Part shown: one piece after another, positions 607 to 57,227 of the stretch | Layout: each line of letters starts with the position of its first letter | Position numbering within the stretch: position 1 is the stretch's first letter | NCBI RefSeq assembly: GCF_030295325.1 | Contig: NZ_AP027059.1 | Location: 2,166,637 to 2,230,636, forward strand | Source: Haliovirga abyssi | GTDB taxonomy: Bacteria; Fusobacteriota; Fusobacteriia; Fusobacteriales; Haliovirgaceae | DNA: 64,000 nucleotides | Direction of reading: 5' to 3' | Translations under genes and position numbers: made by a program | The notes under the pieces: model-generated | What the model was told of the DNA's origin: nothing | What the model saw: only the letters and a program-made list of their open reading frames with translations | The model's database searches: none

Positions 607-930
607 TTTTCCCTCCAAATTTTATTTTTTTATTTCCTAAAGTTTTTTTATCTTATATCGATAAATATAATATCCAAAGATATATCTCCCCGATGTATCT
701 TAAAGAATGTTAAAAATTACAGAAATAGTATTTTTAACATTCAAATCCATGATATTTAGAAGAATAGGGCTTTTACCAGCTCTATTCTTCTATAAAAACA
801 TCCCGTTTCGGATGATTTAAAGAACGTTTAAAAAATAAGTTTCTTGTATTTTGTTATAAAAACGCTTTAATCGTTGCGTATTTTATAATAAAATGATAAG
901 GTTGTTTTTAAATCGTTCCTAAGAAAGAGC
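607..930. other. Intergenic region with two palindromes and a family A element
   Basis: No gene is visible. From left to right it holds an inverted repeat at about 704-742 (GAATGTTAAAAAT.../...TATTTTTAACATTC) that resembles a worn, shortened family A element; a clean hairpin at 758-791 with 10-bp arms AGAAGAATAG/CTATTCTTCT but no T-run on either side; and a full family A element at 821-919. The role of the 758-791 hairpin is unknown. It lies in the 5' region of the ferredoxin gene. Confidence 0.6.
821..919. mobile_element. Family A palindromic MITE-like element, copy A1 (99 bp)
   Basis: Starts AGAACGTTTAAAAAATAA and ends TTTTTAAATCGTTCC, with a mirrored interior (ATTTTGTTATAAAAACGC against GCGTATTTT..AAAAT), so the whole copy can fold as one long hairpin. 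It is flanked by TAA at 818-820 and 920-922, read as a 3-bp target duplication. It has no coding capacity. It abuts the terminator stem at the end of hemZ. Confidence 0.8.
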
Positions 931-2322: not shown

Positions 2323-2434
2323 CTCTCTTAATTTATTTTATTTTTATTATATCATATTTATCAAATTTTATGTATAGGTTATTGTGACATTATACACAAT
2401 AAAATTTAAAATAAAAACAGACGACTTAATATAC

Positions 2435-3910
2435 TGTACCCTATAAGATGGACATTTAAAAAAAAGTTGCATCAGATATGGTATTTTTATATAATATCTA
2501 TAATGTTAATTTAATAGATTGGAGGATTTCATGAGCAACAAAATATTCACAAAAAAAGAGATTGAAATTTTATCAAAAAATAAATATGTCAAAACTATAA
2601 GTTCTAAGGCAATCACATATACATCAGAATTCAGAAGAATTTTTATTGCAGAAAGTCAAGATAAAATTTTACCTAGAGCAATATTTGAAAAATATGGATT
2701 TGACGTACAAGTATTAGGGATGAAAAGGATTCGATCAGCAGCAGCAAGATGGAGACGTGCCTATAAAGAGCAAGGAGTATTAGGGTTAGATGATAGAAGA
2801 AAAGAGAACTCTGGACGACCTTTAGAAAGAGAGCTATCTTTAGAAGAGAAATATGAAAGGCTTCAAGTAAAAAATGATTATCTTCAAGCGGAGATTGATT
2901 TGCTAAAAAAGCTAGACGTGCGAGAAAGAGAGGTGAACGGTAAATTAATTGAATTATCGCCATCAGAAAAGTTTGTTATAATCAAAGATGTAATAGAAAC
3001 AAGTGGTGTAAAAAATATTATAAAATATTTATGTGAAGTTGCAGAAATTTCTAGAACAAGTTATTATAACTATTTGTCTGAAACTTCCAAAACAAATAAA
3101 AGCAATCAAGAATTAGAAGATGAAAAAGCAAGAGATTTAATCATAAAAGCATATGAATTCAAAGGTAGGCAAAAGGGAGCTAGACAGATAAAAATGACTT
3201 TAGAAAATGAATTTGCTACAATTTTTAATCTGAAAAAAATCAGAAGAATTATGAAAAAATATAGTATTGTATGTACGATTAGAAAGGCAAATCCTTATAA
3301 GAGAATAGCAAAGGCTACAAAAGAGCATACAACTATTCCAAATAAATTGAATAGGGAATTTAAACAAGAAATACCAGGGAAAATATTATTAACAGATATA
3401 ACATACCTATCATATGGTAATGGTCAACGTGCGTATTTATCAACTATTAAGGATAGTTCAACAGGAGAAATACCTGCATATGTATTATCTAAAAATATTA
3501 AGTTAGAAATTGCAACAGAAACAATAAGAACTCTTATGGAAAACAAAAGCTTTAAAATTCATAAGGATGCATTAATACATTCTGATCAAGGAGTCCATTA
3601 TACAAGCCCAACATTTCAAAAATTAGTTAAAAATAGTGGCTTAGATCAGTCAATGTCAAGAAGAGGTAATTGCTGGGACAATGCTCCTCAAGAATCATTT
3701 TTTGGCCACTTTAAAGATGAAGCAAATATTAAAGAATGTAATACATTTGAAGAATTAATTAATGAGATTGATGATTATATGGATTATTATAATAATTATA
3801 GATGTCAGTGGGGATTAAAAAAGATGACTCCTATAAAATATAGAAATCATCTTTTAGAAAATAAATCAGCTTAACTACTTTTTTTTAAAATGTACTTGAC
3901 AAAGGGTACA
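2435..3910 (+). mobile_element. IS3-family insertion sequence, complete
   Basis: The ends are TGTACCCT and AGGGTACA, forming imperfect inverted repeats of about 27 bp that also share an ACATTT..AAAA inner block. The element is about 1476 bp and carries one transposase gene on the plus strand. TG...CA ends and the DDE transposase place it in the IS3 family, probably near the IS150 group. No perfect target duplication was found: the flanks are ATAC on the left and GATT on the right. The outer flanks are the two arms of a terminator hairpin. Confidence 0.85.
2531..3874 (+). CDS. IS3-family transposase, single fused frame
   Basis: A 447-residue DDE transposase. Residues 1-140 correspond to OrfA, with helix-turn-helix segments and a coiled-coil stretch around 100-130. 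Residues 145-447 correspond to OrfB, with the catalytic residues D289 (LLTDITY), D352 (HSDQGVHYTSP) and E388 (NAPQESFFGHFK), and D(35)E spacing. Most IS3 elements join two frames by a -1 frameshift, whereas here both parts lie in one frame, which occurs in some branches. The start is the ATG at 2531, 5 nt after GGAGG; an upstream TTG overlaps that site. The gene looks intact and the element may be active. Confidence 0.9.
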   Translation: MSNKIFTKKEIEILSKNKYVKTISSKAITYTSEFRRIFIAESQDKILPRAIFEKYGFDVQVLGMKRIRSAAARWRRAYKEQGVLGLDDRRKENSGRPLERELSLEEKYERLQVKNDYLQAEIDLLKKLDVREREVNGKLIELSPSEKFVIIKDVIETSGVKNIIKYLCEVAEISRTSYYNYLSETSKTNKSNQELEDEKARDLIIKAYEFKGRQKGARQIKMTLENEFATIFNLKKIRRIMKKYSIVCTIRKANPYKRIAKATKEHTTIPNKLNREFKQEIPGKILLTDITYLSYGNGQRAYLSTIKDSSTGEIPAYVLSKNIKLEIATETIRTLMENKSFKIHKDALIHSDQGVHYTSPTFQKLVKNSGLDQSMSRRGNCWDNAPQESFFGHFKDEANIKECNTFEELINEIDDYMDYYNNYRCQWGLKKMTPIKYRNHLLENKSA

Positions 3911-3951
3911 GATTATAAAAGTCGCCTGTCAAATATAAAACTTTTTTTATT

Positions 3952-6783
3952 TTAGTGCAAAACTACCATTTCATTAGTGCTAAGATCAAATGTAGCTGAA
4001 CCATTTGAAACGCTTACACTATCACTTCCTAAAATACTTTGATAAGTTCCATTAGATTTAGCTAAACCGCTAACAGATAATGTAGTATGAGCTCCTCTAT
4101 TCACCGCAACTGTTACTACATCATTTCCATCAACTCTTTCAAATACAAGTACATCATCATTTACCCATTTTTCATTATACGCACCTTTTTGTACAGCACT
4201 GCTATTTGCTCTTAAATTTGATAATTTCCCAAGTTCACCATATAACGGTGTAGTTGTATCAAATGAAGGCATCATTTCTCTATTCCAAGGATCTTCTCCT
4301 GTTTTAACTTGCCCAAATACAACTTCTTGATTTCCATTAGATGTATATTGCTCCGTTCCATAATAAACAACAGGTATTCCTGGTAGCACTTCCAAAAGTT
4401 CTATCCCTAAATCTATTCTTTGTTTCATATAATTTTCATCATTCCAACCTTTTACATATTTCAAATATGTTGCTGTTCTTCTAGCATCATGATTGTCCAT
4501 AAATGTTGGTTGCCAATCTGGTGAATTAAATTCATTTGCTCTTTGTTTTACATAATTACTTAAATCTTTCATTGTTGAATCATCTGCTATAGCTCCTTCT
4601 ATTTTGTATTTCATTTGGAAATCCAACACTGCAGATCCAGAACTGTTTGCAAAATTTATAGAAGCTGAATTTCCTGCTCCAGCATCATACCATTCTCCAA
4701 AGAAATATACACCTTGAGTTCTATGTAATGTATTTATTGCATAATCATTCAAAGTAGTAGTAAATTCTTTTATAAAGTCTCCATCAATATGTTTTACTGC
4801 ATCTAGTCTAAACGCATCAACTCCTGCATCCATCCATTTTTCTGCCGCTCCAATTAAATAATTTTTTGTTAATTGACTTTTATGACAGAAATCTGCTAAT
4901 CCATACATATCTTTTACTATATAATTAGGATAAATATCCCAATCTCCTGCCGCTGCATCTATACCGCCATTATGATGATAATAATTTCCATAAGCCCATT
5001 GTTTTCCACCCATATCAAAATATCTTGTCGGTCCATCATTTGGATGATCTGTTAATTTAACTCCATCCTTATATAACGCTCCATATTCATCAGTATATGC
5101 AGGATTAGAGTGATTTAAAGCAAAATCTAAAACTAATTTCATCCCTCTTTTTTCCATTTGTTTATCTAATTCTTTAACTAAAGCCCAATCTCCTAAATGT
5201 TCATCAACTTCATAAAAATCTTTCGCCCAATATCCATGATATCCAACTTGGTCATAAGTTTCGTCTACTCCATCTGTATTATCCACTAATGGAGTTACCC
5301 AAACTGCTGTTATTCCCATATTTTTTAAATAATCAAGTTTATTTATAAGCCCTTGTATATCTCCACCAAAATATTTTCTCCAATTGCTCTTATCTGCTGA
5401 ATATTGCGCTGGATTATTTCCATTATTGTTAGATGGATCTCCATCGCTAAATCTATCAGTCATTAAGAAATAAATTGTTCTTCCTCTCATATCTACAACT
5501 GGAGGTACAATTTCTGTTGCTGTTATTTCTTTTGTAGTTTCATTAAATATTATTTTATATTCTTTATCCCCTGCTGGGACAGAAGATGCATAAGTTTCGC
5601 TTTCATCATCATTCACTATGCTAAATGCTACATCAGCTCCAAAAGTAACAGTTATTTCTCCATTAGTTAAAATATCTTTTCCAAAATTGTTTGCTGCACC
5701 TTTAAAATACCAGCTAGGTCCAACTTGTTCTGCTGCTGTTATTGTTTTTGTCCCTGCATCAAATGCTACTAAATAATTAGTGTTAGCATTCAAACTGTAA
5801 TCTGCTGTTGGATAATTTTCTGTCCAGTCTCCATAATGATCTATTTTAAATCTTGGTCCGCCTCCATCATCTCCAGCTCCTGTTGTTATTGATGTCTCCC
5901 ATTTTCCTGTTGTACTATTATAAGTAAGTGCATCTGCTGCCCAACCATTAAAGCTTCCTCTTATAAACCATCCATCCTCTGGAGTTGTTTGCTCTGTAGC
6001 TGTTATCGCTTTTGTTGTTTCGTTAAATGTTATTTTATATTTTTTATCTCCTGCTGGGACAGAAGATGCATAAGTTTCGCTTTCATCATCATTCACTATG
6101 CTAAATGCTACATCAGCCCCAAAAGTAACAGTTATTTCTCCATTAGTTAAAATATCTTTCTCAAAATTATTTGCCGCACCTTTAAAATACCAGCTAGGTC
6201 CAACTTGTTCTGTTGCTGTTATCGCTTTTGTACCTGCATCAAATGCTACTAAATAATCACTGTTAGCATTCAAAGTATAATCTGCTGTTGGATAATTTTC
6301 TGTCCAATCTCCATAATGATCTATTTTAAATCTTGGTCCGCCTCCATCATCTCCAGCTCCCGTTGTTATTGATGTCTCCCATTTTCCTGTTGTACTATTA
6401 TAAGTAAGTGCATCTGCTGCCCAACCATTAAAACTTCCTCTTATGTACCAAGCATCTACAGGATTACCTTTCGGAGTCGCTGTTATTGCTTTTGTATCAT
6501 CATAAAATACAATTGTATAAGTTTTATTTGCATCTACTGTATAATCTTGAGCTGGATACGATTCCGCCCAATCTCCATAACGATCTATCTTAAATCTTGG
6601 TCCGCCACCACTATCTCCATTTGCAAAAGTTACTTCCAATTCCCATTTATGATTCCCTTGATACGTCATTTGTGTGCCTTGCCACGAGTTAGCGCTCCCC
6701 TTTAAATAAGCTTGATTCCAGTCTGCATAAATCCCCATTGTGAAAACTAAAAATGCAGTAATCAAAATTGATACTCTCTTCAT
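3952..6783 (-). CDS. Secreted GH13 alpha-amylase with five N-terminal starch-binding-like modules
   Basis: 943 residues. Signal peptide 1-20 (cut after GIYA), then five beta-sandwich modules at about 24-105, 110-195, 197-266, 271-356 and 358-425, and a GH13 catalytic domain from about 432. The GH13 signatures are intact: VLDFALNHSN (551-560), FRLDAV with nucleophile D661, FFGEWYD with acid/base E697, and FMDNHDARR with D766. The longer modules contain WYIRGSFNGW and GGPRFKIDHYGDW, resembling SusE/CBM26-like starch-binding folds. Residues 112-265 are almost identical to 272-425. It should hydrolyse alpha-1,4-glucans outside the cell. The start follows AAGGAGGAAGAAAG. Its terminator holds the IS3 element, and the divergent neighbour carries the same modules. 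Confidence 0.9.
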   Translation of the reverse strand: MKRVSILITAFLVFTMGIYADWNQAYLKGSANSWQGTQMTYQGNHKWELEVTFANGDSGGGPRFKIDRYGDWAESYPAQDYTVDANKTYTIVFYDDTKAITATPKGNPVDAWYIRGSFNGWAADALTYNSTTGKWETSITTGAGDDGGGPRFKIDHYGDWTENYPTADYTLNANSDYLVAFDAGTKAITATEQVGPSWYFKGAANNFEKDILTNGEITVTFGADVAFSIVNDDESETYASSVPAGDKKYKITFNETTKAITATEQTTPEDGWFIRGSFNGWAADALTYNSTTGKWETSITTGAGDDGGGPRFKIDHYGDWTENYPTADYSLNANTNYLVAFDAGTKTITAAEQVGPSWYFKGAANNFGKDILTNGEITVTFGADVAFSIVNDDESETYASSVPAGDKEYKIIFNETTKEITATEIVPPVVDMRGRTIYFLMTDRFSDGDPSNNNGNNPAQYSADKSNWRKYFGGDIQGLINKLDYLKNMGITAVWVTPLVDNTDGVDETYDQVGYHGYWAKDFYEVDEHLGDWALVKELDKQMEKRGMKLVLDFALNHSNPAYTDEYGALYKDGVKLTDHPNDGPTRYFDMGGKQWAYGNYYHHNGGIDAAAGDWDIYPNYIVKDMYGLADFCHKSQLTKNYLIGAAEKWMDAGVDAFRLDAVKHIDGDFIKEFTTTLNDYAINTLHRTQGVYFFGEWYDAGAGNSASINFANSSGSAVLDFQMKYKIEGAIADDSTMKDLSNYVKQRANEFNSPDWQPTFMDNHDARRTATYLKYVKGWNDENYMKQRIDLGIELLEVLPGIPVVYYGTEQYTSNGNQEVVFGQVKTGEDPWNREMMPSFDTTTPLYGELGKLSNLRANSSAVQKGAYNEKWVNDDVLVFERVDGNDVVTVAVNRGAHTTLSVSGLAKSNGTYQSILGSDSVSVSNGSATFDLSTNEMVVLH
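5510..6450 (-). repeat. Tandem ~480-bp duplication inside the GH13 amylase
   Basis: Two consecutive copies of a module pair (about 6450-5990 and 5970-5510 on the minus strand) encode nearly the same 154 residues at a 160-residue spacing. The DNA itself is nearly identical over long runs, which points to a recent unequal-crossover duplication. Confidence 0.85.
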
Positions 6784-7149: not shown

Positions 7150-7352
7150 GAAACGTTTGGAAAATAATTTTTTTATATTTTGTTATAAAAACGCTTAAAG
7201 AATATTTAAAAAATAAGTTTTTCATATTTTGTTATAAAAACGCTTAAATCATTGCGTATTTTAGAACAAAATTAGGAAGGTTATTTTTAAATCATTCCTA
7301 AATCATTGCATATTTTAGAACAAAATAGAAATGTTGTTTTTTTAGCTATTCC
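7150..7352. mobile_element. Family A element, outer copy A2, interrupted by copy A3
   Basis: The left half GAAACGTTTGGAAAATAA...AACGCTT and the right half ATCATTGCATATTTTAG...TATTCC together make one 100-bp family A element once the 103-bp insert is removed. GCA flanks it at 7147-7149 and 7353-7355 as a 3-bp target duplication. Confidence 0.8.
7199..7298. mobile_element. Family A element, inner copy A3 (100 bp), nested in A2
   Basis: Starts AGAATATTTAAAAAATAAG and ends TTTTTAAATCATTCC. It is flanked by TAA at 7196-7198 and 7299-7301. Removing 100 bp plus one TAA rejoins the outer copy seamlessly, so this copy arrived second. Confidence 0.85.
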
Positions 7353-10400: not shown

Positions 10401-11491
10401 CTTCAGAAGTCATAAATTATCCTGCAATACCTTCTGGAGTAGCAGGAACGGCTCTTTCTATTTCAGAATTAAAAATCAATTGGGATAGTGCTCAATATGC
10501 TACTTCATATAAATTATATATGTCTAGTTCTACAAATGGTGTTTTTAATGAAATTACTGATACTACTAATTTAGAGTATACTGTGACTGGATTAAATGAA
10601 AATACAACATATTATTTTAAAGCAAAATCATTTAATAGCAATGGAGAGTCTGATTACTCTAATGTTATTTCTGCTACTACACAAAAGTTGAACTATCCAG
10701 AAATACCTTCTGGAGTAGCAGGAACGGCTCTTTCTACTTCTGAATTAAAAATCAGTTGGGATAATGCTCAATATGCTACTTCATATAAATTATATATGTC
10801 TAGCTCTACAAATGGTGTTTTTAATGAAATTACTGATACTACTAATTTAGAGTATACTGTGACTGGATTAAATGAAAATACAACATATTATTTTAAAGCA
10901 AAAGCATTTAATAGCAATGGAGAGTCTGATTATTCTAATGTTATTTCTGCTACTACACAAAAACAAGCTGTAGATGGTTGGTTCATTAGAGGTAGTTTTA
11001 ATAGTTGGGGGACTGATGCTTTAACTTTTAATAGTTCTAATGGTAAATGGGAAATAACTATTACTACTGGGAATGGCGATAGTAATGGTGGTCCTAGATT
11101 CAAGATCGATCATTTTGGCGATTGGAGCGAAAATTATCCGAATGATGATTATAGTTTAGATACTAACTCTAGTTATAAAATTGAATTTGATGCTAGTAGC
11201 AAGGCTATAACAGCTACTTTGCAAGGTAATCCAGCAGACAATTGGTATATTAGAGGTAGTTTTAATGGTTGGGGAACTGACGCTTTGAGTTTTAATAGTT
11301 CTACTGGTAAATGGGAAATAACTGTTACCACTGGAAATGGCGATAGTAACGGTGGGCCTAGATTTAAGATTGATCATTTTGGTGATTGGAGTGAAAATTA
11401 TCCTAATGCTGATTATGGATTGAATTCTAATAGTAGTTATATTATTGAGTTTGATGCTAGCAGTAAGGCTATAACAGCTACTTTGCAATAG
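7415..11491 (+). CDS. Secreted GH57-type glycoside hydrolase with CBM25, FN3 and starch-binding-like modules
   Basis: 1358 residues. Signal peptide about 1-22. The GH57-like catalytic region spans about 25-560 and starts with the HNHMPNFW motif (31-38). YFPTELGF holds the probable nucleophile E221, and VVAHDGDN (361-368) holds the probable acid, assigned by analogy with GH57 conserved regions. A CBM25-type starch-binding domain lies at about 900-990 (TIYYKG...CFNQSGSNWD), possibly preceded by a second binding domain at 803-890. Two near-identical FN3 domains (1001-1090, 1093-1182) and two modules (1187-1270, 1276-1358) follow; the last two match those of the divergent GH13 enzyme. GH57 enzymes are alpha-amylases, glucanotransferases or pullulanases, and which activity applies cannot be decided here. 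The start follows AAGGAGGATG. Confidence 0.85.
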   Translation: MKNIKMKLLLLLAILLSTLSFGEVAATHIYHNHMPNFWPFYDVETYNSTNVGDPVRYMYDGQVINAKINPPANWFFLPDGSATPHDDLVAYYTHHAKTGAYLSWPMDTANGNHDRYPKSQTQVTMSGAVITNVESFAELNNVSGYENDNWGQYWRDVHYGTRTTNGFPALDLIHFTGHHSMGPLVGKDFFLKDLIYQNVVLSRPYFLGDGFKSSKGYFPTELGFSERLIPTLAKLGVSWSVLGNVHYSRALKDYPYLNDPGKDCLVSPPNRADMRNTDTYGGSWVDRHMFNEQQTTYNKFPFASIPHYVRYIDPETGAESKIAGIPVEQAGSWEEGYQGSVSGGFLKQFEGNTNGREQYFVVAHDGDNSSGRAGDGGTWANSGNVTYAESGIEGIGVDEYLLAHPIPQDDIVHVQDGSWIDTRDSSSDPTWYHWHIPMGIWKGQFADFNRINGTNYSPKKNLDGVEEGHTVSFEYGYHYLERNFALLQAAENYAKTAEQIWLDSHPNYWHPTSQLDYEIVGANNTANQLNPYMYSFPVKGDSNNDYAGGANPAELGWYFLTASIDSGFGYYDENVDDGVKPTVSFDQSLYFSKPYVEANLANDKTGPSVWWPQRYPYNPGSANKSKAEGWTLQYFDNNFGIYTYAFDASGIQNIKVKIRTHSEKWADPKDRTYQVYDPQKLSNQGVPEINPANVGNWVEYPMTKRSLQDSINGVDWQPSGKEMMNIVSAQEIGDMYYSYIGDYRDQLIDYYIEATDSKGNITKSNIQQVYVGAGKYKNVDDKIIEDVNGTIEGTYPFVTNVSPERKIDLYVENIESNSVNVEYVKEDGSWSSMKLMDSVSADPKYKHTVITFRSENSSTKIRYTDNNGSSWKPSASGVDVSTGTYTIYSDNSIQAGAPSGISFTTTIYYKGALGTNIHWAPTDEAGTPIESEWTIAPGDPMETSDIYGYVSKTLNLGMHNKAMVCFNQSGSNWDSDHLFNSGTWTYEAGVITSGKPSEVINYPAIPSGVAGTALSISELKINWDSAQYATSYKLYMSSSTNGVFNEITDTTNLEYTVTGLNENTTYYFKAKSFNSNGESDYSNVISATTQKLNYPEIPSGVAGTALSTSELKISWDNAQYATSYKLYMSSSTNGVFNEITDTTNLEYTVTGLNENTTYYFKAKAFNSNGESDYSNVISATTQKQAVDGWFIRGSFNSWGTDALTFNSSNGKWEITITTGNGDSNGGPRFKIDHFGDWSENYPNDDYSLDTNSSYKIEFDASSKAITATLQGNPADNWYIRGSFNGWGTDALSFNSSTGKWEITVTTGNGDSNGGPRFKIDHFGDWSENYPNADYGLNSNSSYIIEFDASSKAITATLQ
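10415..11488 (+). repeat. Two tandem duplications in the 3' part of the GH57 gene
   Basis: The FN3-coding units at about 10415-10684 and 10691-10960 are almost identical in DNA. They are followed by two starch-binding-like units at about 10973-11224 and 11240-11488 that are similar but more diverged. Domain duplication is therefore layered in age. Confidence 0.8.
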
Positions 11492-20404: not shown

Positions 20405-20428
20405 GGAATGGCTTAAAAATAACGTTCC
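20405..20428. mobile_element. 24-bp minimal family A element, copy A4, at the ldhA stop codon
   Basis: GGAATGGCTTAAAAATAA followed by CGTTCC keeps both family A termini with almost no interior. CTA flanks it on both sides (20402-20404 and 20429-20431). The right CTA is the complement of the ldhA TAG stop codon, so the duplication coincides with the stop. Confidence 0.65.
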
Positions 20429-23294: not shown

Positions 23295-23337
23295 GTTTTT
23301 ATAACAAAATATAAGAAACTTGTTTTGTTAACGTTCC
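23295..23337. mobile_element. Truncated family A element, copy A5 (right half only)
   Basis: GTTTTTATAACAAAATA followed by AAGAAACTTG...AACGTTCC matches the right half of full copies such as A8. The left half is absent and its place is taken by the flank of the CGCAGAGG palindrome. Confidence 0.6.
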
Positions 23338-33483: not shown

Positions 33484-33526
33484 GGAACGTTTAAAAAATA
33501 ATGTCCTCATATTTTTAAGCCATTCC
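33484..33526. mobile_element. 43-bp shortened family A element, copy A6
   Basis: GGAACGTTTAAAAAATAA ... ATTTTTAAGCCATTCC with a deleted interior. TAA flanks it on both sides (33481-33483, 33527-33529). It ends 22 bp before the start of the following gene, so it lies in its leader or promoter. Confidence 0.75.
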
Positions 33527-34886: not shown

Positions 34887-35531
34887 ATGATTAATATTAT
34901 CATTGCAGATGACCAAATTTTATTAGCAGAATCTTTAAAGTTAATATTGGAAACTGATAAGGAATTAAAAGTTAATGCCATTGTAGAAAATGGAATTTTA
35001 GCAATAAAAAAAGTTGAAGCTAGCAAACCAGATGTTATATTATTAGATATAAATATGCCTAAATTAAATGGAATAGAGACTGCTAAAAAAATTAAAAAAA
35101 TATCTCCTAATACAAAAATTTTAATGCTTACTACTTTTGAGAATAGAGAAAACATTATAGATTCTTTTGTTTCTGGTGCTGATGGATATATTGTAAAAGA
35201 TATCTCCCCAGAAGAACTAATTGCTGCGGTAAAGTTTACATATAAAGGATTACATATAACTCATTCAAGTGTACATAAAATTTTAATAGATGAGTTTTTA
35301 AAATTAAAAAGCAGAAAAAATATATTAGATTCTAACTCTTCTCAATTAACAGAAACTGATTTAGATATTATAAAATTAATTGCTCAAGGAAAAAGTAATA
35401 AAGAGATTTCTAAAAGTTTATATTTTGCAGAAGGAACTATAAAAAATAAGATATCATCCATTTTAAATAAATTAGATTTAAGGGATAGAACTCAAATAGC
35501 TATTTTTGCAATTGAAAATAATCTTATATAG
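34887..35531 (+). CDS. NarL/FixJ-type response regulator
   Basis: 214 residues. Receiver domain 1-120 with the acidic pair D8/D9, phospho-acceptor D54 (DVILLDINMP), a Thr in LMLTTF and K105 in VKDIS. LuxR-type HTH at about 148-212 (LTETDLDIIKLIAQGKSNKEIS, GTIKNKISSIL). It lies between two sensors and should be phosphorylated by the complete kinase downstream. It starts 18 nt after the pseudokinase stop with GAGAGGTG. Its TAG stop is shared with the left edge of family A copy A7; before the insertion the same TAG would have overlapped the kinase's ribosome-binding site. Confidence 0.9.
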   Translation: MINIIIADDQILLAESLKLILETDKELKVNAIVENGILAIKKVEASKPDVILLDINMPKLNGIETAKKIKKISPNTKILMLTTFENRENIIDSFVSGADGYIVKDISPEELIAAVKFTYKGLHITHSSVHKILIDEFLKLKSRKNILDSNSSQLTETDLDIIKLIAQGKSNKEISKSLYFAEGTIKNKISSILNKLDLRDRTQIAIFAIENNLI

Positions 35532-35626
35532 GGACGAAAAATAACTTACCCATTTAGTTTATAAAATAGGCAATGTTTCTAGCCTTTTTATAAACTAATA
35601 TGAGAACATTATTTTTTAAACGTTCC
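35531..35626. mobile_element. Family A element, copy A7 (96 bp), between response regulator and kinase
   Basis: Starts GGGACGAAAAATAAC and ends ATTTTTTAAACGTTCC, in the opposite orientation to copies A1-A3. ATA is duplicated (35528-35530, 35627-35629). The first G completes the TAG stop of the response regulator, so its protein end is unchanged. Confidence 0.75.
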
Positions 35627-38739: not shown

Positions 38740-38751
38740 TTTAATTATAAT

Positions 38752-38857
38752 TTCTATCATCCAGACTTTAACTGTCGGTTTTGGAATTGCACCAAATCAA
38801 GCTTACGCCTCGCGGACTATTACCGCCGGTAGGGAATCACACCCTGCCCCGAAATAT
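38752..38857 (-). ncRNA. FMN riboswitch (RFN element)
   Basis: The minus strand reads the conserved RFN blocks in order: TTCGGGGCAGGGTG, ATTCCCTACCGGCGGTAATA, GTCCGCGAG, TTGATTTGGTGCAATTCC, AAAACCGACAGTTAAAGTC and TGGATGATAGA. FMN binding is known to promote termination before ribBA. Confidence 0.95.
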
Positions 38858-38897
38858 TTTGTTTTTATAAATCAAATTTATACTTTTCTCTTAAATA

Positions 38898-39687: not shown

Positions 39688-39758
39688 ATTTTATTTTGAA
39701 TTTCTCCATAAAATTATTTCAACCTATCTTCTCAATTAATAGTATCAATTAACAACAT

Positions 39759-39878
39759 GATTAGAACCCAAAAAGGTAGTTTTCTAAAATCATACCACTA
39801 CATATAGTTTCGTAAAAACTTTCGAACACTATATGTAGTGGTATGAAGAAAACTAAATACCTTTTTGTGGGTCAATCA
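39759..39878. repeat. Family B palindromic element, copy 1
   Basis: Begins GATTAGAACCCAAAAAGGTA and ends TACCTTTTTGTGGGTCAATC; the inner arms ATACCACTACATATAG/CTATATGTAGTGGTAT are perfect complements. The copy at 48470 differs at only a few bases. It lies directly behind the porin gene and could also act as its terminator. Confidence 0.85.
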
Positions 39879-39883
39879 TAATA

Positions 39884-41101
39884 TTAAAAACTATATTTTA
39901 CTTTTGTATAAATCATATCATTATTATCAAATTGTCCAAAAGGTCCACTATCTCCAACAAAAATATCTCCTCCACCTATTATATTAAATCCATCAAATAA
40001 GCTATAATCAACCTTTGTTTTTATTAAAGCATCTTTTGTTTCTACATTATAATATGCAAACAGTTGACAAAATAGAGTATCTCTTAAAAACTTATCATTA
40101 ATGTTTAAAGTTAATGTAGTCTTTAGTTTATCTTGCATAACCTCATCTTCATCTTTATAATCCAATATATATTCTTGAATAATTTGATTGCTTAAATTTA
40201 CACCTAATATATTATAGTCTATGCCAATCATATAATTCAAATCATTCTTTTTTACTACTCCTTCATTTAAAATATTTTTTGTTTGCAACGCTTTATCAAT
40301 ATATAATGCTCCTTCTCCTCTTAAAATAAGACCAGCTACTGATTTACTAAAACTTCCACCTATAATTTTATTTCTATAATATTCAGGTTGAACTACTAAT
40401 CCAGAACTCCCTTTTGAAATATTATTTACAGGTGTAGAATTCCATAAATATCCACTTATTAATTCATAATCTAAAAAATCATTTATAGAAGAAATTTTTA
40501 TAGCAAAACTACTATTTTTCAAATTATTCTTCATTGACATTTTAGATAAATCCATTGTTGCGTTCTCAAATTCCTGAGGCTTTTTTATTGCCCAAATAGA
40601 ATTTGAAGCTGGTAATATATCTCCTTGAAAATCTGGTATAAATACTGTTTCTACTGTAGTATCTCCAAAATAATAATCTAATTTAGCAGCATTAACCCCT
40701 ATCCTTATCTCATCAAAATCTGGCAATATAAATTCTGTCAAATCTTTCGGAGAAATAACATCAGTAATAAATACTCCATCAGCTTTTCCAAATATTATCT
40801 GTTGTTTCCCTATTCTTAAATCAAAATTTTCAAAATAAAGGTCTATATATCCCTCTTTTAATTTTAAATCAATATTAGATTCAGAATTATAATTATAAAG
40901 AATTGGATTTATATGTAATTTCCCTTTATCTCCACTATAATCTAAATTCAAATTAAAGCTATTTTGTAAAATGGAATAATCTCCATTCTGCAATAAAACT
41001 CCTGTGTAGTTTTGCAAATAACCAGTTGTTTCTAACTGATTTGCAAATACTCCCTGAGTAAATAAAAGCCCTAATGAAATCAATAACAATATCTTTTTCA
41101 T
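39884..41101 (-). CDS. Outer-membrane porin-like protein of the RND-associated DUF1302-like type
   Basis: 405 residues. Signal peptide (about 1-20, FANQ). The mature part is a beta-barrel with alternating residues; DLRIGKQQIIFGKADGVFITDVISPKDL (given in parts: LRIGKQQIIFGKADG, SPKDLTEF) resembles DUF1302-like and alginate-export-like porins, and it ends in an aromatic residue (KVKYSF), the classical barrel signal. It overlaps the preceding LolA-like gene by one base (TAATG) and is the last gene of the MMPL/LolA-like/porin operon, suggesting transport of a hydrophobic compound across the envelope. The start follows GAGGTG. Confidence 0.75.
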   Translation of the reverse strand: MKKILLLISLGLLFTQGVFANQLETTGYLQNYTGVLLQNGDYSILQNSFNLNLDYSGDKGKLHINPILYNYNSESNIDLKLKEGYIDLYFENFDLRIGKQQIIFGKADGVFITDVISPKDLTEFILPDFDEIRIGVNAAKLDYYFGDTTVETVFIPDFQGDILPASNSIWAIKKPQEFENATMDLSKMSMKNNLKNSSFAIKISSINDFLDYELISGYLWNSTPVNNISKGSSGLVVQPEYYRNKIIGGSFSKSVAGLILRGEGALYIDKALQTKNILNEGVVKKNDLNYMIGIDYNILGVNLSNQIIQEYILDYKDEDEVMQDKLKTTLTLNINDKFLRDTLFCQLFAYYNVETKDALIKTKVDYSLFDGFNIIGGGDIFVGDSGPFGQFDNNDMIYTKVKYSF

Positions 41102-44267: not shown

Positions 44268-44366
44268 GGAACGGCTTAAAAATAACCTTCTGATTTTGTT
44301 TTAAAATACGCAATGGTTCAAGCGTTTTTATAACAAAAAATGAGAAACTTATTTTTTAAACATTCT
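44268..44366. mobile_element. Family A element, copy A8 (99 bp)
   Basis: GGAACGGCTTAAAAATAACC...TTTTTTAAACATTCT. The flanks TGA and TTA are not a perfect duplication, so this copy is older or altered. It lies between the crp terminator and the MMPL gene, most likely inside the leader RNA. Confidence 0.75.
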
Positions 44367-48426: not shown

Positions 48427-48662
48427 CTAAAAAAAATAGAATATAACAGCTCTTTAAATTTAAAATTATGATTAGACCCCCAAAAGGTAGTTTTCTAAAA
48501 TCATACCACTACATATAGTTTCGTAAAAGCTTTCGAACACTATATGTAGTGGTATGAAGAAAACTAAATACCTTTTTGTGGGTCAATCAAATTATTATTA
48601 ATTTTTAAAAAGAGCTTAATTATATTCTACTTTATAACAGATTAATTATCAATTGTTATTTT
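48427..48662. other. Intergenic region before the kinase gene
   Basis: Holds the second family B element and AT-rich sequence. No promoter was identified with confidence. Confidence 0.5.
48470..48588. repeat. Family B palindromic element, copy 2
   Basis: GATTAGACCCCCAAAAGGTA...TACCTTTTTGTGGGTCAATC, nearly identical to the copy at 39759 (about four differences, clustered at the left end and centre). Confidence 0.85.
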
Positions 48663-49425
48663 TTAATTCCACTTATTAAATCTTCTTTTCCCAAAATGTT
48701 TACCACTTTCTATAGAAACACTCTTTTCAATACTGTAACCTGAATTGTGTTTAGCTATATTTTGATTTTCAATTAAACTATTTGCTCCAACTACAGCTAA
48801 TGCAAATATTGATACAACTCCTATTACTTTTGGAATAAATTTAAGCTCTTTTGTCTTTTTAGGAACGGCTTAAAAATAACCTCTCCATTTGATAATAAAA
48901 GATGCAATGTTCTAAGCATTTTTATTATCAAATATAAAAAAATATTTTTTTAAACGTTCTCTTAGGTTGTGCTGTTAATTCTGTCATATACCCAAAAGGA
49001 CATACTTGACACCAAGTTCTTGGTTTAAAAAACACTCCTAATATAGTTCCAACTATTGTACTTGTTAATATAAATCTAAAAAATACAAATCCAATCTTGA
49101 GTAAATCTCCTCCTGTCTTCGTTAAAGAATATATAAAGAACCCAAACATTAACGTAAAGAACAGTGCTTTAAATTTTCTGCTTTGAAAAAACTTAGGTGC
49201 TTTTTTATTTAAAGATATCTTTTGTAATATTTTTGTTAAAAAATTTCCTCTTGGGCAATAAAACGCACAAAATGTTTTTTTCTTATCTTTTATACTCATA
49301 TAAACTGCTGGTATCATACATAATAATGCTGCTAAACCAAATAATGGGTTAATTATAGCTAATAATAAAAATAATATCATTAATGTCCAGTTCCATTTTA
49401 AATATACCTCTTTTAATTTTTTCAT
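48663..49425 (-). pseudogene. NapH-like 4Fe-4S membrane protein, interrupted by a family A element
   Basis: The 5' part (start 49425, after GAGGAGATAAAAAA) encodes two or three membrane segments and the cysteine motifs FCAFYCPRG and WCQVCPFG of NapH/NosR-like electron-transfer proteins. It now stops within the inserted element, giving 165 residues ending FKKIFFYI. Downstream of the element the same frame resumes (PKKTKELKFIPKVIGVV, membrane segment, stop at 48663). Removing the 100-bp element plus one TTA gives an uninterrupted 219-residue frame (660 nt). The product would pass electrons across the membrane via two [4Fe-4S] clusters. Both Cys motifs precede the insertion, so the short form may still fold. 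Confidence 0.85.
48862..48961. mobile_element. Family A element, copy A9 (100 bp), inside the NapH-like gene
   Basis: GGAACGGCTTAAAAATAACC ... TTTTTTTAAACGTTCTC with a perfect TTA duplication at 48859-48861 and 48962-48964. Stop codons in the element end the host frame. This is the clearest evidence that the family has moved. Confidence 0.9.
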
Positions 49426-49547: not shown

Positions 49548-50060
49548 CTATCTTCTTCCTCTACCTTGTCTTTGACCTCTATTTCCTTTATTTCTATTGT
49601 TTCTTCTCATATTTTTTCTACCACTGTTTCCTTTCCCATAAGCTGGTCTATTGTCATTAATACCATCTCCATTTGCATCTACGAAATTATCATTTATTCC
49701 ATCTCCATTCTTGTCCACAAAATTTCTACCTTGCCCATTTGGATTTGCTCTTCCTGTCCCTCTTTGCCATACTGTTACTGCTGAATTTGTTGTATTAACT
49801 CTGTTTCTGCCATACCCTCTTCCATAAGCAGGTCTATTATCATTTATTCCATCTCCATTTGCATCTACGAAATTATCATTTATTCCGTCTCCATTCTTGT
49901 CTACAAAATTTCTACCTTGTCCATTTGGATTTTGTTTTCCTGTTCCTCTTTGCCATACTGTTGTTGCTTTTGCTGTTGTTGTAGTTGTTCCCTCATCTGC
50001 CATTACCAAACTTCCTATAATCATCATTGCTCCCAAACCTAATACCAATCCTTTTTTCAT
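49548..50060 (-). CDS. Secreted DxNxDG-repeat protein with basic tail
   Basis: 170 residues. Signal peptide (about 1-21, VMAD). Two repeats of about 58 residues follow, each with TVWQRGTG, PNGQGRNF and two calcium-loop-like motifs FVDKNGDGIND and FVDANGDGIND (four loops in total, pattern D-x-N-G-D-G-x-x-D). The tail is Arg/Asn/Gly-rich and ends GNRGQRQGRGRR. The loops look like EF-hand or thrombospondin type-3 calcium sites. The start is the ATG at 50060, 9 nt after AAAGGAG. It lies upstream of the NapH-like gene on the same strand, so a shared periplasmic or redox role is likely but unproven. Confidence 0.7.
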   Translation of the reverse strand: MKKGLVLGLGAMMIIGSLVMADEGTTTTTAKATTVWQRGTGKQNPNGQGRNFVDKNGDGINDNFVDANGDGINDNRPAYGRGYGRNRVNTTNSAVTVWQRGTGRANPNGQGRNFVDKNGDGINDNFVDANGDGINDNRPAYGKGNSGRKNMRRNNRNKGNRGQRQGRGRR

Positions 50061-50309
50061 TTTAAACATCTCCTTTAATTTTTTATTTATTGACCTATTA
50101 GGTCTTAACACTCTATATATAGCAACTCTATTTCAAAAATATTATTTTTATCTATTTTTTTATAAAAAAATTATAATTTTTATTTTATATTGCTCTCGGC
50201 TTAAATAAAATCAACATTTAAAGCACAAAAATATTTATTAAAAAAATTTATTTTCAACAGTTCAACTTGTATCTCTTGAAAATCAATTAGATATTCTATC
50301 CTATTAAAC

Positions 50310-57128: not shown

Positions 57129-57227
57129 GGAACGTTTAAAAAATAAGTTTCTTATATTTTGTTATAAAAACGCTTAAATTATTGCGTATTTTAAAACAAA
57201 ATGGGAATGTTATTTTTAAGCCATTCC
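57129..57227. mobile_element. Family A element, copy A10 (99 bp)
   Basis: GGAACGTTTAAAAAATAAG...TTTTTAAGCCATTCC with a perfect TTA duplication (57126-57128, 57228-57230). This is the best-preserved copy and a good reference for the family. Confidence 0.85.

Follow-up and report, generated by a model that had tools for sequence, protein, structure and literature searches.

A MITE-like palindromic element has very probably trimmed a weakly constrained tail from a NapH-like membrane Fe-S protein of Haliovirga abyssi

In the window analysed here, a stretch of 64,000 nucleotides from the genome of Haliovirga abyssi, the insertion of a MITE-like element at a TTA has very probably cut a weakly constrained tail off a NapH-like protein, the core of which is kept and is probably functional. 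According to the mechanism proposed, a non-autonomous palindrome of this kind has entered the NapH-like Fe-S gene with duplication of 3 bp, presumably with a transposase supplied in trans. Stops read in frame within the element end the protein 10 residues past the junction, resulting in the removal of a C-terminal extension together with its hydrophobic segment. The short protein, which retains the whole family core with the CxxxCP/CxxCP motifs, probably still folds and transfers electrons, and the insertion may have been tolerated because only a weakly constrained tail was removed. The locus represents a clean, empty-site-verified case of a MITE that has cut a protein back to just the architecture seen in its wider family.

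Insertion site and reconstructed frame

The locus is composed of the following features.

48862..48961 (+), palindromic MITE-like element of 100 nt with an inner hairpin; end E1 = GGAACGGCTTAAAAATAA on the left, end E2 = GGAACGTTTAAA (reversed) on the right
48859..48861, left copy of the target-site duplication, TTA, based on the flank reading and the family-wide 3-bp duplications
48962..48964, right copy of the target-site duplication, TTA, on the same basis
48928..49425 (-), truncated NapH-like membrane Fe-S ORF of 165 aa, based on the Pfam match, the Cys motifs and the frame reading
48663..48858 (-), the gene's orphaned 3' end, which encodes the C-terminal extension and is open down to the stop at 48663-48665

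The minus-strand gene starting at 49425 enters the element and encounters three stops in a row (TGA TAA TAA) after 165 codons, the product being made up of 155 gene codons and 10 element-encoded residues, RTFKKIFFYI. Cutting out 48862-48964, namely the element and one TTA (103 bp), gives an open frame of 660 nt, which consists of 219 codons and the stop at 48663-48665. The 100-bp palindrome flanked by TTA, the removal of which in silico restores 660 nt and 219 residues, had been described in the initial annotation, and its coordinates and frame were all reproduced.

The direct repeat at the site is also readable as TTAGG, with GG both at the start of the element and in the host after the right TTA. 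The 3-bp reading is preferred because copies across the genome start with GGAA and duplicate exactly 3 bp; a 5-bp duplication is ruled out by this conserved family start and by the finding that none of 101 clean copies has a duplication of 4 or 5 bp. An exact 3-bp duplication was observed in 80 of these 101 copies (shuffled mean 26.2, maximum 36; 4 bp, 0/101), which bears out the earlier view of a mobile palindrome inserted with a 3-bp target duplication. The right end of the window copy reads CGTTCTC versus CGTTCC or CGTTCT in the family, and this one additional base is the reason for its length of 100 rather than 99 bp.

Empty sites in the sister genus

Among 84,980 species genomes, the best relative was a Fusobacteriales MAG (L031), apparently identical with record G058/L032. 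Its orthologue, the core of which is 91% identical to that of the window gene, possesses a site without the element, with GCACAACCTAAAAAAGC continuous across it, and its alignment with the joined window sequence has no gap at the insertion point. In G076, the second genome of the same sister genus, the long form is also uninterrupted. The empty-site alleles that the initial annotation had suggested seeking in related genomes are therefore present in two of them, and the read-through of these orthologues upholds the view of the visible protein as a truncation relative to the ancestral form of the lineage. Given the empty sites in the sister genus, the insertion dates from after the split between the two lineages. 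In the sister genus, a DUF2202 ferritin-like gene follows the NapH-like gene (L031 3697-4236; L165 from ~2276), which is not seen at the window locus.

The truncated protein and its lost tail

Membrane Fe-S proteins of the NapH/NosR/CcoG type are characterized by two CxxxCP/CxxCP-type motifs. Like them, the window protein matches Pfam Fer4_5 (PF12801; E 8.9e-8, 31.7-32.4 bits, curated cut-off 22) and harbors two such motifs, CAFYCP (residue 53) and CQVCP (residue 139). Both lie inside the retained core, as had been pointed out for the short form, and their four Cys are invariant in alignment A1 of the homologues. Unlike that type, most members of the family here have only about 155-165 residues, a soluble ferredoxin-type domain was not detected, and the gene neighbours of the homologues vary from genome to genome. 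Upstream of the truncated gene, 49548-50111 (-) encodes a secreted-looking protein of 187 aa that contains duplicated DKNGDGINDN repeats and lacks any match in Pfam.

The extension is short (62 codons) and carries one hydrophobic segment at residues ~159-185 of the joined frame; it shares 40-41% amino acid identity with its uninterrupted counterparts in G058 and G076, and 50-59% in the hydrophobic part. Its loss means one predicted membrane segment fewer, which would move the C-terminus to the other side of the membrane.

When 98 Fusobacteriota genomes were searched with a profile, 20 matches were obtained, distributed over 17 genomes, the window genome included. The extension occurs in two of the 19 other homologues of the phylum, both from the sister genus, while the remaining 17, including one partial frame, terminate 9-19 residues past the second Cys motif; four of these 17 have a CPMS/CPMK motif that escaped the motif expression, and for them tail lengths of 11-17 residues were taken directly from the sequences. 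The truncated window form terminates 20 residues past the same motif. The three bearers of the extension (window, G058 and G076) constitute one clade with support of 100/99. Nei-Gojobori counts, made on short sequences and with high dS in the tail, gave a dN/dS of ~0.07-0.11 for the core when the window gene is compared with its sisters (~0.07 versus G058), and ~0.55 for the extension, rising to ~1 between the two intact sisters.

These counts indicate strong purifying selection on the core in the window-sister pairs. Limited to one clade and high in dN/dS, the extension is a lineage-specific, weakly constrained addition that evolves rapidly even where it is intact. The initial annotation had taken the 219-residue form as complete and the 165-residue form as damaged, a contrast that could not be sustained, since 17 of 19 element-free homologues end near residue 165. 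Such relatives had been named as grounds for abandoning the truncation; the part of the proposal that survives rests on the sister-genus pair, which does keep the segment. Judged from these comparisons, the cut-off part lies outside the conserved family protein, yet its loss is a real truncation, as the closest relatives have the segment, and the insertion returns the protein to the family-typical length. A weakly constrained tail makes a working short form likelier than could be known from the window alone, and such a form is plausible.

The element family

Haliovirga, a genus with one species, makes up a separate family within Fusobacteriales and is alone in that family among the genomes compared; its genome comprises two replicons of 2,427,922 bp and 297,551 bp. 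Genome-wide matches to the end motifs amounted to 93+104 for E1 and 82+97 for E2, with 0-5 for reversed-pattern controls, which corresponds to ~200 copies in the 2.73 Mb of the genome, spread over both replicons. The structures of the copies were surveyed in ~0.84 Mb of sampled sequence, where the majority of the full copies are 99 bp long. The element is short and non-coding, with stops in nearly every frame of the consensus and the window copy; it has terminal inverted repeats (GGAAYGGCTTAAAAATAA and GGAACGTTTAAAAAATAA as inverted ends), duplicates its target and is multicopy and dispersed, features by which a MITE is recognized. The duplicated 3-mers are mainly TTA (38), TAA (22) and ATA (6), the rarer ones including TAT, AAA, TGA, CTA, TTG and TTT, and the broader target sequence resembles YTWAR.

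Short forms of 38-54 bp are devoid of the inner hairpin, and forms of 199-200 bp are constructed by one copy sitting in the central TTA of another, with 13 candidate nested junctions in a motif search. Spans of 146-152 bp were rejected as a class of their own, being mostly cross-pairings inside nested 199-200-bp copies; a 146-bp variant with a different middle (AAGGCTCAAGGTTC...; L079 15962-16107, L110 3196, L126 1501) is a possible separate subfamily. Long repeats starting at element ends (L110/L126 and L113/L151) turned out to be paralogous host genes with an adjoining copy rather than transposons. Several copies are 100% identical to the consensus, which suggests that their subfamily was active not long ago. 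The element was not detected in the 59 other Fusobacteriales genomes searched, nor in viral contigs (by exact end motif) or plasmids; an Rfam search of the stretch examined gave no match for it, and a literature search on fusobacterial MITEs returned nothing relevant. An apparently undescribed, genome-saturating element is thereby defined in a deep fusobacterial lineage.

Besides the copy in the NapH-like gene, the window contains the following.

57129..57227 (-), full copy, intergenic, with a TAA/TAA duplication
44268..44366 (+), full copy
821..919 (-), full copy with TTA/TTA flanks
7150..7298 (-), composite of a full element (7199-7298) and, next to it, the right half of a second, as would result if one copy had entered the other at its central TTA and loss had followed
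33484..33526 (-), 43-bp short form with both ends, no inner hairpin and a TTA/TTA duplication
35514..35626 (-), diverged full-length copy with the E2 end intact and the E1 end degraded

An E1 end at 20405 and an E2 end near 23337 were rejected as the borders of a 2.9-kb element and are regarded as remnants, as the genes between them are dehydrogenase-like and amylomaltase-like (named by eye).

Placement relative to genes

Clean copies rarely lie within an ORF (3/78, 4%; matched random TWA sites, 70%) and are frequently located no more than 6 nt from a stop codon (13/78, 17%, versus 2% of random sites). As TAA and TTA are both target and stop codon, insertion there doubles the stop and spares the gene, which would illustrate how dense repeats can persist in a compact genome with its genes unbroken. 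Either target choice or purifying selection may underlie this bias. The NapH-like insertion is one of the few within a gene; three further copies apparently lie inside ORFs (L085 1501-1599, L114 1501-1599 and L153 1413-1510), with a joined frame of 652 codons in the case of L085.

Hairpin and age of the window copy

Among 58 distinct 99-bp copies, both-sided changes were found at 6 of 25 consensus pairs (23 cells), several of which are present in the window copy, whose plus strand folds at -22.9 kcal/mol. Selection may account for paired changes of this kind, and so may template switching, by which palindromes are corrected. Of 64 full-length copies, only one is more isolated than the window copy (83% identity to its nearest neighbour and 79% to the consensus), which implies either a diverged source copy or a residence of some duration at the site. 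The probability of the tail still being open was calculated as 0.79, 0.54, 0.27 and 0.10 at 0.02, 0.05, 0.1 and 0.2 substitutions per site, so that the open tail favours a modest age as a loose bound. The truncation had been called recent: the open tail speaks for this and the divergence of the copy against it, so that the word holds in the sense of after the split from the sister genus and nothing tighter, a stronger sense being weakly supported.

Comparison with known elements and the mobilising enzyme

Bacterial MITEs such as RUP, Correia/NEMIS and ERIC have been reviewed, RUP of Streptococcus pneumoniae being 107 bp long with 108 copies (PMC2229807). Like them, the present element is below 200 bp, non-coding and A+T-rich, with terminal inverted repeats, a stem-loop, a target duplication, a mainly intergenic position and a high copy number (PMC2229807). 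It differs from them in its GGAAYG ends and in that it often inserts at stop codons and in the centres of other copies, and its 3-bp TWA-type duplication departs from the typical TA-flanked MITE ends of that review (PMC2229807). The 3-bp duplication, which includes TTG, AAA and TTT, also led to the rejection of an IS630/Tc1-derived MITE with its 2-bp TA duplication. RUP has a partner in IS630-Spn1, whereas no autonomous partner sharing the ends of the present element was found in the ~0.84 Mb sampled or via four DDE families.

The IS5 family (ISL2/IS1031 groups) and the eukaryotic PIF/Harbinger-Tourist MITEs generate 3-bp TNA/TWA target duplications. The present element resembles them in its 3-bp duplication. 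In contrast to those systems, the genome here yielded no transposase domain of the IS5 or Harbinger type: searches for PF01609, PF13359, PF13586 and PF13340, in each of which the positive controls worked, gave no match, and thus a transposase of the DDE_Tnp_1, DDE_Tnp_4 or DUF4096 type, as expected for an IS5/Harbinger-derived MITE, was not recovered. Judged from the duplications, the element was most likely moved in trans by a DDE-type transposase that cuts with a 3-nt stagger; this partner may have been lost, may belong to another transposase family or may lie outside the sampled sequence. Other candidates were rejected by their different ends, including a 1.48-kb rve-type IS (8 copies; ends TGTACCC), a ~1.8-kb rve-type IS (3 copies; ends GGTAGTGTC), a degenerate rve gene and an IS200. 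The 1.48-kb IS, located in the window at ~2430-3915, exists in eight near-identical copies across both replicons.

Alternative explanations

That the joined frame is coincidental, the gene never having included the extension, could be entertained for an AT-rich sequence and a short tail, yet this is refuted by the empty sites and practically without any likelihood, as two sister-genus orthologues read through and their tails align at 40-41% identity. A dying pseudogene, in which the element destroyed the gene and the core is now drifting, deserves more consideration and is nevertheless rather unlikely. The hydrophobic segment of the nearest orthologues is gone and 10 foreign residues have been added, as this explanation would have it; however, the core keeps all of its 155 codons and shows 91% identity to that of G058 with a dN/dS of ~0.07, a signal that may mostly predate the insertion, and most family members naturally terminate at this point.

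As for the element itself, an origin as a REP/BIME-type palindrome, which a Y1 (RAYT/IS200-type) transposase would mobilise without duplicating the target, would accord with the high copy number, the palindromic structure, the mostly extragenic position and the one Y1_Tnp gene in the genome. This origin is very improbable, for the two flanking 3-mers covary between copies (TTA, TAA, ATA, TAT, AAA, TGA, CTA and others), unlike a fixed target motif, and the sole Y1 gene looks like an ordinary IS200 beside an IS21-like gene with no element ends around it. The MITE-like insertion that trimmed a weakly constrained tail is the preferred reading. Its most far-reaching version, which combines a TWA-preferring, lineage-restricted element that hits stops and its own centres, a hairpin kept by paired changes, an unrecognised transposase and a one-step trimming of the lineage-specific long protein back to the family-typical short one, is offered as a speculative and improbable whole.

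Other sequences in the window

A second palindromic family (ends GACCCCCAAAAGG...) is represented by two copies, 39749-39886 and 48460-48597, which are 94% identical, and the latter is situated just downstream of the truncated gene; more copies were found in L080, L116 and L109. In addition, long tandem-like coding repeats occur at 5513-6619 and 10415-11464 with a spacing of ~264-480 nt, and an FMN riboswitch is located at 38745-38860 (-), with a score of 110 bits.
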